A DNA stretch of 43,880 bases from an uncultured Burkholderiales bacterium (GTDB lineage Bacteria; Pseudomonadota; Gammaproteobacteria; Burkholderiales; Burkholderiaceae_C), in contig CAIPFK010000283.1 in the NCBI GenBank assembly GCA_903864315.1, positions 1 through 43,880 on the forward strand, written 5' to 3'. Below are positions 11,197 to 13,645 of the stretch, piece by piece. The translations under genes and the position numbers were made by a program. Under the pieces are notes generated by a model, which searched no databases, had not been told where the DNA came from, and worked only from the letters and a program-made list of their open reading frames with translations. Positions within the stretch are counted from its first letter, which is position 1. The number at the start of each line of letters is the position of its first letter.

Positions 11197-12704
11197 TGTT
11201 TGTCATTGACCACGACCGAGCAGGCGGCTACTGGGGAGCCGTGTATGTCTTTACCGCCATCAAAGGGCTTCAAGTCGTCATCGATGGACCCGTGGGATGT
11301 GAGAATTTGCCAGTGACCTCGGTGCTGCATTACACCGATGCGCTGCCCCCGCATGAGTTGCCCATTGTGGTGACCGGACTCGCCGAGGAGCAACTCGGGC
11401 GCGAAGGCACCGAAGGTGCCATGAAACGCGCCCATGCCAGCTTGGACCCCGATTTGCCCTCGGTGGTGGTGACGGGCTCGATTGCGGAGATGATTGGTGG
11501 AGGCGTGACGCCCGAGGGCACGAACTTGATGCGCTTTCTACCCCGCACCATTGATGAAGACCAGTGGCAATGTGCCAACCGCGCCATGTCTTGGTTGTGG
11601 AGTGAGTATGGTCTTAAAAAAGTCCCCAAGCGGGTTCGCAAGGAAGGCGAGCGACCACGGGTGAACATCATTGGTCCATGCTACGGCACGTTCAATTCGG
11701 CCAGCGATGTGGCTGAAATCAGGCGTCTCGTGCAAGGCATCGGTGCTGAGATCAACATGGTGTTCCCATTGGGTTCGCACTTGTCCGATGTATCCCGACT
11801 GGTCGAATCTGACGTGAACATTTGCATGTACCGCGAATTTGGGCGTCTCTTGTGTGAGACCCTTGAGCGCCCGTATTTGCAGGCCCCCATCGGTTTGCAC
11901 AGCACCACGTTGTTCCTTCGCAAGCTCGGAGAGCTGCTGGGCTTGGACCCTGAGCCCTTCATTGAGCGGGAAAAACACACCACCTTAAAGCCACTGTGGG
12001 ACTTGTGGAGGTCGGTGACGCAGGACTTTTTTGCAACCGCGAGTTTTGCGGTGGTGGCCAACGAGACCTACACGCGAGGACTCAAGAATTTCTTGGAAGT
12101 GGAGATGGGCTTGCCTTGCCGTTTTGCGGTCTCACGCATGCCTGGACAAAAGACCGACAACGAAGAGGTTCGTCAAATGGTCTACACCCAAACACCACTC
12201 ATCATGTTTGGCAGTTACAACGAGCGCATGTACTTGAGTGAAATTGGTGCACGCGGCCCTATGCGTCCATGCTTCATCCCTGCGTCGTTTCCAGGGGCGA
12301 TCATTCGCAGACACACCGGCACACCGTTCATGGGCTACAGCGGAGCGACCTACCTCGTGCAAGAGGTTTGCAATGCGCTCTTTGATGCACTCTTTCATAT
12401 TTTGCCCTTGGGCACCGACATGGACCGCGCTGAGTCCACGCTCTCCAGAGGCGTCGTGGCTCCAAGCCAATTGCCTTGGAGCGAAGAGGCTCAGAGTTTG
12501 ATGCGCGCCTGCGTTGGCGCACAACCTGTCTTGGTGCAGATTTCAGCTGCCAAAACTTTGCGCGACACCACCGACCGCGCCGCCATTGAGGCGGGGGAGA
12601 GCGAGGTGAGTGCTTCAAGGCTCTTGGTGGTGGCCAAGTCGTTTGGATGGGAGCCTGTTCGTGATGATACCGCTCAACACGAATCCAAGGGAGTGACGGC
12701 GTGA
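11196..12704 (+). CDS. bchZ: Chlorophyllide a reductase subunit BchZ
   Basis: BchZ pairs with BchY to form the catalytic component of chlorophyllide oxidoreductase. At 502 residues it matches the family. It starts [19 protein letters not shown] and has GPVGCENLP with the cluster cysteine at residue 35. [12 protein letters not shown] and [12 protein letters not shown] are NifK-like motifs of the Rossmann domains. The C-terminal segment [28 protein letters not shown] is the light-independent-reductase tail. The gene follows bchY with a 1-nt overlap. Its last codons contain the Shine-Dalgarno sequence AAGGGAG (12687-12693) for the small ORF that begins at GTG 12701 inside the bchZ stop. Confidence 0.96.
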
Positions 12705-12892
12705 GTCGCTTTCATCAACCCATGAACAAGAACACGGATGAGTGCTTCATTGTTGCTGCCCAGACAGCGCAACTTGAGGCCGTCCTTCAGCAATGCAGCA
12801 ACGTTGGGTTGCGGCTGTCCAGGGTGCGCGGGCTGTGCGCATCAACGGTCCATGTGACCAATTTCAACAACAAGGAGCAATCATATGTCTAA
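12701..12892 (+). CDS. 63-aa ORF bridging bchZ and pufB, function unknown (pufQ position)
   Basis: I do not recognise this protein. The GTG start overlaps the bchZ TGA by 4 nt (GTGA), and AAGGGAG lies 7 nt upstream, an excellent ribosome site. The stop codon (12890-12892) lies inside pufB, overlapping its first codons by 8 nt. A gene filling this gap exactly, coupled at both ends, is unlikely to be chance. The product is hydrophilic, has three cysteines (residues 15, 32, 46) and no membrane span. That excludes PufQ, the one-span protein found here in Rhodobacter. It may be a regulatory leader peptide coupling bchXYZ to puf translation, or a real small protein. An internal ATG at 12722 is an alternative start. 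Confidence 0.55.
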
Positions 12893-13028
12893 TCGGACGT
12901 CAATTTCCGGCCTGACCGACGAGGAAGCTCAGGAGTTCCACCATTACTGGGTCCAAGGATTAGTGGGGTTTGTGGCAGTCGCTGCAGTTGCCCACATGTT
13001 GGTCTGGGCATGGCGGCCCTGGTTCTGA
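12885..13028 (+). CDS. pufB: LH1 antenna beta polypeptide
   Basis: This 47-residue polypeptide is the beta subunit of the core light-harvesting complex around the reaction centre. It has the family's acidic N-terminal stretch [18 protein letters not shown], one membrane helix (about residues 22-41) and the B875-liganding histidine in [11 protein letters not shown] at the C-terminus. AAGGAG (12872-12877) lies 7 nt upstream of the ATG. It is the first recognised gene of the puf cluster. Unusually, it is not followed directly by pufA: a 74-codon gene begins 34 nt downstream. Confidence 0.97.
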
Positions 13029-13062
13029 GTTTAAGTAAGTTTTTTTTCTGAGGAGTTTAACC

Positions 13063-13287
13063 ATGTCAGTCATGATCAACGAAAGTCATCGATCTTTGGC
13101 GCCCAAAGAGCGCTGGGGTGAGATGGTGATGTTTGTGCCTTGCTTTGTGGTGTTGTTGGCCGTTGCTTTACTGGGTCAATTGATCGGTATTCATTGGCGA
13201 ACTTGGCTCAGCGGTGCTGAGGATTCACACAACATTGTCGTTGGCATCAAGACAGCGGTTTACACCTTCATGTCCCATATCAATTAG
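13063..13287 (+). CDS. Single-span membrane protein of 74 aa inserted between pufB and pufA, unknown
   Basis: Unrecognised. AGGAG (13051-13055) sits 7 nt before the ATG, and its TAG is part of the TAGGAG that serves as the pufA ribosome site, so it is embedded in the operon. The product has a charged N-terminus (about residues 1-20, with KER), one hydrophobic helix at about 21-43 ([21 protein letters not shown]), then HWRTW and a C-terminal part with a second weakly hydrophobic stretch (57-71). This topology matches LH1-associated small subunits such as PufX, PufW or PufQ, but I see no sequence match to any. His44 beside an aromatic pair (HWRTW) resembles the pigment-binding zone of antenna polypeptides, so it could be a diverged antenna-like or RC-LH1 accessory subunit. 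Gene reality is well supported; the role is inference. Confidence 0.82.
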
Positions 13288-13297
13288 GAGAATAGCC

Positions 13298-13504
13298 ATG
13301 TGGAGAATTTGGCGATTGTTTGATCCCTTGAGAGCCATGGTGGTCCAGGGAATTTTTCTGTTTTCGCTGGCTGCGATGATTCACCTCGTTTTGCTCAGCA
13401 CGAACAAGTACAACTGGTTTGACGGTCCTCGCGTAAAGCAGCCCACAGCGGCATCGGCGCAAAATGCACCGATGCCCTCGAACACTGCTCAAGCGAAGTC
13501 TTGA
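13298..13504 (+). CDS. pufA: LH1 antenna alpha polypeptide
   Basis: The alpha subunit of LH1 begins [18 protein letters not shown], has one membrane helix, and carries the bacteriochlorophyll ligand histidine in [11 protein letters not shown] followed by NKYNWFDG. The 68-residue product ends in an Ala/Pro/Gln-rich tail that may be trimmed. The start is fixed by AGGAG (13286-13290) and by the family N-terminus; the frame is open 28 codons further upstream, but that part overlaps the preceding gene and is not antenna-like. Stop is at 13502-13504. A hairpin follows before pufL, as expected where antenna messages must outnumber reaction-centre messages. Confidence 0.96.
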
Positions 13505-13531
13505 ACGACTGAGTATTTTTGAGGGTAGGGT

Positions 13532-13577
13532 GCAGGTACCCAGACTTGGTTTTGTCCCCCAAGTGTGCAGTACCTGC
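13532..13577 (+). promoter_or_regulatory. Intercistronic hairpin between pufA and pufL (mRNA-stability element)
   Basis: GCAGGTAC (13532-13539) pairs with GTACCTGC (13570-13577). An inner stem ACTTGG (13544-13549) with CCAAGT (13559-13564) follows after a small internal loop, capped by a 9-nt loop. No T-tract follows, so this is not a simple terminator. Hairpins at this position in Rhodobacter protect the pufBA message from 3' decay and set the antenna to reaction-centre ratio; the same role is inferred here. Confidence 0.75.
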
Positions 13578-13645
13578 TTTCTTACAGTTTTTTGAAGTGA
13601 ACAATCGTTGGTTTTTTGCCTTGGTTGGCAAAGGAGGGCTTGAAG

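Follow-up and report, generated by a model that had tools for sequence, protein, structure and literature searches.

The puf operon of an uncultured Burkholderiales bacterium raises the question of which protein is encoded between pufB and pufA, the genes for the beta and alpha polypeptides of the LH1 antenna. In the window, i.e. the whole stretch of 43,880 nucleotides that was analysed, the gene order was pufB-ORF2-pufA-pufL-pufM-pufC, preceded by an ORF which we take to be bchZ. The antenna genes were named with the models Pfam LHC and NCBIfam, the reaction center genes with PF00124 and the cytochrome gene with PF02276. The gene pufB (12885–13028, plus strand; PF00556, E 4.1e-11; NCBIfam pufB, E 1.1e-22) encodes a short LH1 beta chain of 47 amino acids that possesses the histidine ligand and no C-terminal tail. 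ORF2 (13063–13287, plus strand) follows with 74 amino acids from ATG to TAG, and pufA (13298–13504, plus strand; PF00556, E 3.2e-11; NCBIfam pufA, E 7.1e-18) encodes LH1 alpha. The first-pass annotation had described a 74-codon gene with its own AGGAG site and a stop codon lying within the ribosome-binding site of pufA. Both features were read directly from the DNA: the Shine-Dalgarno sequence AGGAG of ORF2 (13051–13055, plus strand) ends 7 nt before the ATG, and the stop codon TAG (13285–13287) overlaps the AGGAG of pufA (13286–13290, plus strand). The mean Shine-Dalgarno duplex energies among the fetched loci were -7.7 for ORF2, -7.8 for pufB and -7.2 for pufA. The intercistronic region between pufA and pufL (13505–13640, plus strand) folded into a hairpin region more stable than its shuffles (z -2.75), only 1 of 200 shuffles being equally stable.

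Two side observations concern other antenna genes. The genome of the window carries a second antenna gene pair, of LH2 type by appearance, on another contig (C232, 6751–7001). The C-terminal tail of the window PufA (13298–13504) contains A-P-M-P and fits the motif [A/S]-[P/A]-[L/M/I]-P, which has been tied to the contact with the cytochrome subunit (PMC9640540, available in part). This motif was missing at locus L149, whose genome G364 has no detected pufC, and also at L038, L040, L153 and the Rubrivivax gelatinosus locus L100. Since at least three of the latter four come from genomes with pufC, the link between motif and pufC is not clean.

The ORF2 family was found in 44 of 101 genomes comprising the window's own and its relatives, a count that includes a fragment at a contig end (G022) and leaves out a long-tailed beta chain (G089); the search gave 45 places at E < 1e-6. 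Carried by this many genomes, ORF2 is not a chance reading frame. Wherever all three genes were recognised, in 121 fetched loci, their order was pufB-ORF2-pufA on one strand; these loci correspond to 98 distinct DNA segments, and 16 more loci stood outside this count because one gene lay beyond the contig end or was missed by the filter. The locus sets partly repeat the same contigs, and distinct counts are therefore given. The pooled pN/pS was 0.20 for ORF2 (34 pairs), 0.07 for pufB (31 of those pairs) and 0.11 for pufA, the pairs being close, non-independent and chosen by eye. Thus the gene recurs between pufB and pufA, and its pooled ratio lies below 1, the two properties by which the first-pass annotation had proposed to check it.

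The same annotation regarded the gene as unrecognised. This holds for its function in the available parts of two publications, but not for the gene itself, which is already in print as ORF2 and ORF74 (PMC12817894; PMC10037100). In the R. gelatinosus puf operon an ORF1 upstream of pufB and an ORF2 upstream of pufA were described without assigned functions (PMC12817894, citing Nagashima 1994). The position upstream of pufA is that of the window gene, and a homologue was indeed present between pufB and pufA at the R. gelatinosus and R. benzoatilyticus loci (L100, L110 and L109). In the accessible text of that publication, ORF2 was compared with alpha chains only; it was aligned with them at 10–15% identity to PufA2 and rejected as the origin of pufA2 (PMC12817894). 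In Roseateles depolymerans, pufA, pufB and ORF74 were co-transcribed in the major puf transcript of 1 kb, changed the most under carbon starvation and dropped to 0.71, 1.09 and 2.34%, respectively, in a sigma-factor mutant (PMC10037100, available in part). The locus tag of ORF74 (RD2015_RS05155) falls between those of pufB (RS05150) and pufA (RS05160), and the species was reported to lack puc genes as far as detected (PMC10037100), so that ORF74 is independent of LH2. Judged by its place between pufB and pufA, the transcript shared with both and the length of 74 given in its name, ORF74 is almost certainly the counterpart of ORF2. The first-pass annotation had expected expression at antenna-like level, and the major 1-kb transcript supports this at the RNA level for the presumed counterpart (PMC10037100, available part). 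Our literature search, which covered mostly titles and abstracts and is not proof of absence, found no publication naming ORF2 a beta paralogue.

The descent of the protein was addressed by sequence comparison, in which alignment A1 consisted of 20 chosen rows and alignment A2 of the window protein and 55 chosen of 75 sequences. As a single sequence, the window protein had no match to Pfam LHC (PF00556) at E 10, and no ORF2 exceeded 33.1 bits with the pufB model; an identity by Pfam or NCBIfam was rejected for the single protein, as its matches lay far below the curated cut-offs. A single-sequence search of the PDB did retrieve an LH1 beta chain (8z81_B, E 1.7e-4). With a 20-member profile searched against all PDB chains, 40 of the 41 matches up to E 10 were antenna chains (best 8z81_B, E 1.8e-13); 30 of these were named beta, 10 antenna, light-harvesting or alpha-beta subunit, and none alpha alone. 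The sole other match was a cytochrome oxidase chain at E 4.1. HMM-HMM comparison aligned ORF2 with the long-tailed beta chains over the whole length including the tail (probability 99.3, E 7.1e-21) and with a beta set with no or nearly no tail (probability 97.5, E 6.2e-12). The alpha chains gave a probability of only 9.9 (E 0.0032), and alpha ancestry was rejected on this basis, in agreement with the available part of PMC12817894. The consensus residues F20, I23, F24, F28, F31, A35, L41, W45, R46, W48, L49, P50 and G51 were common to ORF2 and long beta, as were S57, G61, V62, A65 and S71 in the tail. The conserved face of the helix pointed to 231 degrees in ORF2 (shuffle p 0.025) and to 233 and 243 degrees in beta, while the column entropies of the helix showed no correlation between ORF2 and beta (rho 0.16, p 0.39). 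Taken together, these comparisons leave little doubt that ORF2 descends from LH1 beta.

The closest likeness is to long-tailed LH1 beta chains, represented in the PDB by 8z81_B, 9m8m_B and 7xxf_B. Such chains also occur in Burkholderiales (L044, L138, L139, L143 and L145), where they are homologous to ORF2 over the whole length, tail included. Unlike ORF2, they keep the bacteriochlorophyll-ligating histidine and the WxWRPW motif. The single long beta stands in the place of pufB plus ORF2. The first-pass annotation had predicted one helix at about residues 21–43. A helix in this region was retained in the AlphaFold model, its extent was not (14–48), and a second helix was predicted at 57–73; the model is of low confidence (mean pLDDT 64), and a fold search with it gave no match.

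The most conspicuous difference from beta concerns the pigment site. Among 107 distinct ORF2 sequences, the ligand column held glutamine in 78, threonine, lysine and serine in 6 each, alanine in 3, asparagine, arginine and histidine in 2 each, and glycine and leucine in 1 each; this count omits duplicate copies (L046, L047, L154, L155), weak PufQ-like matches scoring below 50 bits and one fragment at a contig end that lacks the column. Hence 105 of the 107 have lost the ligating histidine, the window protein carrying glutamine. In the long and short beta sets histidine occurs at this column by construction, as the sets were defined by it. A count free of this selection was obtained from 94 distinct ORFs above 60 bits with the pufB model, of which 93 had the histidine by motif; the remaining one (L095), with an odd C-terminal end, also reads AH. 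L097 and L098 (3001–3222), the two ORF2 sequences with histidine, are near-identical proteins of Curvibacter MAGs that were moved from the histidine class into ORF2 by score and tail; their histidine may be a reversal, a remnant or chance.

The loss of the ligand coincides with further changes. Codons 38–42 of the window gene (13174–13188, plus strand) read G-Q-L-I-G, with the lost ligand position Q39 inside a small-xxx-small pair. Both positions 38 and 42 were small in 93 of 107 ORF2 but in only 7 of 87 beta sequences, and 80 of the 87 betas have alanine and valine there. Small-xxx-small pairs are helix-packing motifs, and a protein helix, a lipid, a carotenoid or a quinone may thus fill the former place of the bacteriochlorophyll ring. 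Other beta residues were retained unequally: the N-terminal histidine H21 in 1 of 107, W43 in 19, P47 in 0 and W48 in 92, so that the first tryptophan of the WxWRPW motif is usually lost. Taken together, ORF2 has very probably lost ordinary bacteriochlorophyll ligation. Lacking the ligand that defines an LH1 beta antenna polypeptide, it was not filed as one. The family need not be pigment-free, since glutamine, the commonest replacement, is able to ligate chlorophyll in other antennas. Among the possibilities named in the first-pass annotation, the diverged antenna polypeptide was borne out by the PDB profile, the HMM-HMM comparison and the ligand column, which together point to a beta paralogue without the bacteriochlorophyll histidine.

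The tail, by column entropy, is among the best-conserved parts of the protein. Residues 45–53 had 0.53 bits and residues 61–73 had 0.65 bits; the helix stood at 1.81, the linker at 2.45 and the N-terminus at 3.2 bits. In the window, codons 45–53 (13195–13221, plus strand) read WRTWLSGAE, with the family consensus WRxWLPGAE, and comprise the end of the helix and the start of the tail. Codons 57–73 (13231–13281, plus strand) form the conserved C-terminal tail, which is predicted to be helical and aligns with the long LH1 beta tail. A divergent LH1 type with the alpha motif IHLIxISxDRY and a changed beta was seen at L033, L041, L043 and L140–L142, the last three belonging to other families. The ORF2 tail differs along with it, reading Y[TS]V[IM]S instead of YTFMS, as if the pufB-ORF2-pufA block travelled as a whole.

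In its distribution, ORF2 follows the reaction center. An even sample of 399 Burkholderiales genomes contained 48 with reaction center genes, two of which (G207 and G361) were cut by contig ends. Among the 46 assessable genomes, 38 had ORF2, 18 of them inspected as loci and 20 assigned by score alone (E 3.1e-24 or better). Five (G089, G226, G240, G314 and G344) had a single long-tailed beta and no ORF2. The remaining three (G129, G249 and G280), all of one genus (g69), carried reaction center and LH1 genes in which beta was of the short form; they lacked ORF2 and long beta alike. One genome (G335) had ORF2 without a detected reaction center, its contig stopping 239 bases past the ORF2 match. 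In the genus of the window, 41 of 61 genomes carried ORF2; 19 of the other 20, several of them incomplete, had no reaction center match at E 1e-10, and the twentieth was cut inside pufL. When one genome was scanned for each species, 207 stretches were confirmed, and the 80 of them listed include Rubrivivax gelatinosus, R. benzoatilyticus, Piscinibacter aquaticus, P. defluvii and Limnohabitans sp. Rim11. In a sample of 398 genomes across the phylum, the four ORF2 matches all belonged to the window's own family, its own genome included; in 13 other genomes the matches were beta chains, of which nine counted as long-tailed, and a PufQ-like ORF was also matched in G474. A plasmid search with the window protein gave no match. 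To our knowledge, the model species outside Burkholderiales are without ORF2. Three metagenome bins (L070, L071 and L076), which carry the names Candidatus Fonsibacter lacus, Bordetella parapertussis and Rickettsia typhi as titles, contained a puf operon of Burkholderiales type, and their titles or binning look wrong.

A tree of 92 rows included 40 ORF2 rows, a choice from 106, and these made up one side of a branch with support 100/100 that was present in 100% of 200 bootstrap trees; the alignment had few columns, the program reported the bootstrap as unsettled, and the root position was not fixed, so that this side forms a clade only with a root outside it. A single origin of ORF2 is likely from these sequences, not proven. 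For placing the duplication, the tree is firm in the ORF2 group only; a constraint joining ORF2 with the Burkholderiales long beta was not rejected (p-AU 0.445), which is no proof of that grouping. In the simplest story, a long-tailed beta would have been duplicated once, PufB keeping the pigment and losing the tail and ORF2 doing the reverse. ORF2 would then suggest a duplication after which two genes divided between them what one beta chain had combined, the pigment site and the tail.

Judging from its relatives, place and transcription, ORF2 most likely has a structural role in RC-LH1. The protein is probably a stable subunit of this complex, and we lean towards a beta-derived, non-pigmented structural subunit, a 'blank beta'; the new LH1 ring subunit suggested by the first-pass annotation is a plausible reading. 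Such a protein would insert like beta, with the N-terminus in the cytoplasm and the tail in the periplasm. Present in the LH1 ring once or a few times, it could occupy a beta-type slot next to alpha and pack helix-to-helix at the former bacteriochlorophyll site. In doing so it might interrupt or loosen the pigment ring and offer a plausible quinone route, while the tail would grip neighbouring LH1 or reaction center surfaces on the periplasmic side. We infer the ring position and the copy number purely by reasoning, and the strong Shine-Dalgarno sequence and the middle site would fit many copies equally well. Interruption of the ring as the role of ORF2 is a tentative suggestion, with the chances against it. 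A tail serving only as an anchor for PufC was considered and rejected, as G364 and G393 (85% complete) keep ORF2 without a detected pufC; given these genomes and the pufC without ORF2 in genus g69, the tail is unlikely to have PufC as its only partner.

The best surviving rival is an assembly or membrane-insertion factor, absent from the mature complex, which would do the work that PufQ-like proteins do in other bacteria. The gene for PufQ lies upstream of pufB. ORF2 differs in its site, as it was never found upstream of pufB. The window protein had no match to Pfam PufQ (PF05398) at E 10, but this model also matched nothing in the 48 reaction center genomes or in the controls and thus carries no information either way. 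At L150, L152 and L171 (1843–2070, minus strand), genus g69 has a single-span ORF upstream of pufB, which we call PufQ-like from its appearance and its position. That the three genomes of this genus, devoid of ORF2 and long beta, have such an ORF speaks for the assembly factor, as do the weak scores of PufQ-like ORFs with the ORF2 model (17–28 bits) and the location of ORF2 among antenna genes. The beta kinship, the antenna-strength Shine-Dalgarno sequence and the major transcript (PMC10037100, available part) suggest structural amounts instead, and we consider the assembly factor unlikely. Less probable still is a non-pigmented outer layer of many copies, similar to the gamma and gamma-like chains of Blastochloris and Rhodopila, that stiffens the ring or closes its pores. 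The position as middle gene, a Shine-Dalgarno sequence that equals those of pufB and pufA in strength, and the presence of ORF74 in the antenna transcript (PMC10037100, available part) would agree with it, and the gamma-like chains of Rhodopila are placed between beta chains (PMC9640540, available part). These chains are, however, oriented opposite to beta (PMC9640540), whereas ORF2, which retains the face and the tail of beta, presumably has the beta orientation by its homology, and no chain named gamma matched the profile. A working antenna polypeptide with bacteriochlorophyll ligated by glutamine or another residue would fit the glutamine (78) and histidine (2) of 107 sequences and the tryptophan at +9 (92 of 107), but is improbable given the T, K, S, A, N, R, G or L at the ligand column of the other 27, the two small residues at 38 and 42 (93 of 107), the rare W43 (19) and H21 (1) and a pN/pS about three times that of pufB.

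Upstream of the antenna genes, a structured 5' leader RNA with three hairpins and a pseudoknot was recognised (12793–12884, plus strand), which is conserved in Burkholderiales; it ends just before the Shine-Dalgarno sequence of pufB. The pseudoknot joins UGCCC to the loop of the second hairpin. From 124 leaders 44 were chosen, and after removal of four that aligned poorly (L037, L077, L120 and L139) alignment A3 comprised 40 loci. In these, 94.2% of 879 cells could pair, compared to 30–41% in slid controls; 16 of 22 pairs were changed on both sides, and the covariation was 0.351 versus 0.220 in shuffles (0 of 500). With a simpler structure, 567 of 611 cells were paired over the full set of 44 leaders. 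Rfam, searched up to E 1, gave no match overlapping 12793–12884. The leader also precedes the long-beta operons L044, L138 and L145, and could set the translation or stability of the antenna mRNA. An ORF at 12701–12892, immediately upstream of pufB and perhaps the counterpart of R. gelatinosus ORF1, showed shifted frames and stops across the compared loci and is not conserved as a reading frame; the conservation in this region belongs to the leader RNA.

What is new here is the kinship to beta that sequence comparison indicates for ORF2, including the tail, together with the lost bacteriochlorophyll histidine; an ORF on record since 1994 thereby acquires an identity. Most phototrophic Burkholderiales harbor a conserved antenna paralogue that has seemingly given up ordinary pigment binding, among them the laboratory species Rubrivivax gelatinosus and probably Roseateles depolymerans. 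How quinone exits a ring-enclosed reaction center is one of the central questions in the photosynthesis of purple bacteria, and the discoveries of PufX, protein-W, gamma and protein-U/Y have repeatedly reshaped the picture of RC-LH1. The first-pass annotation had likened the topology of the window protein to PufX or PufW. Kinship to these found no support: no chain named PufX was among the 41 PDB matches of the ORF2 profile, from the Rps. palustris structures with protein-W (PufW; 6z5r and 6z5s) only beta-named chains matched, and none of the matches was named gamma, gamma-like, protein-U/Y or RC-S. Homology to PufX, protein-W and gamma was consequently rejected and kept as analogy. The gene places of PufX, protein-W, gamma, protein-U/Y and RC-S differ from that of ORF2; the gene for PufX, for instance, lies downstream of pufM, whereas ORF2 lay between pufB and pufA in all 121 loci. 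What ORF2 may share with these small accessory chains of RC-LH1 is a possible functional analogy. The full proposal, that in most phototrophic Burkholderiales a blank beta split once from a long beta and marks a quinone break in the pigment ring, is rather doubtful at present. If true, a gap in the LH1 ring would have arisen from a beta chain, independently of PufX and protein-W.
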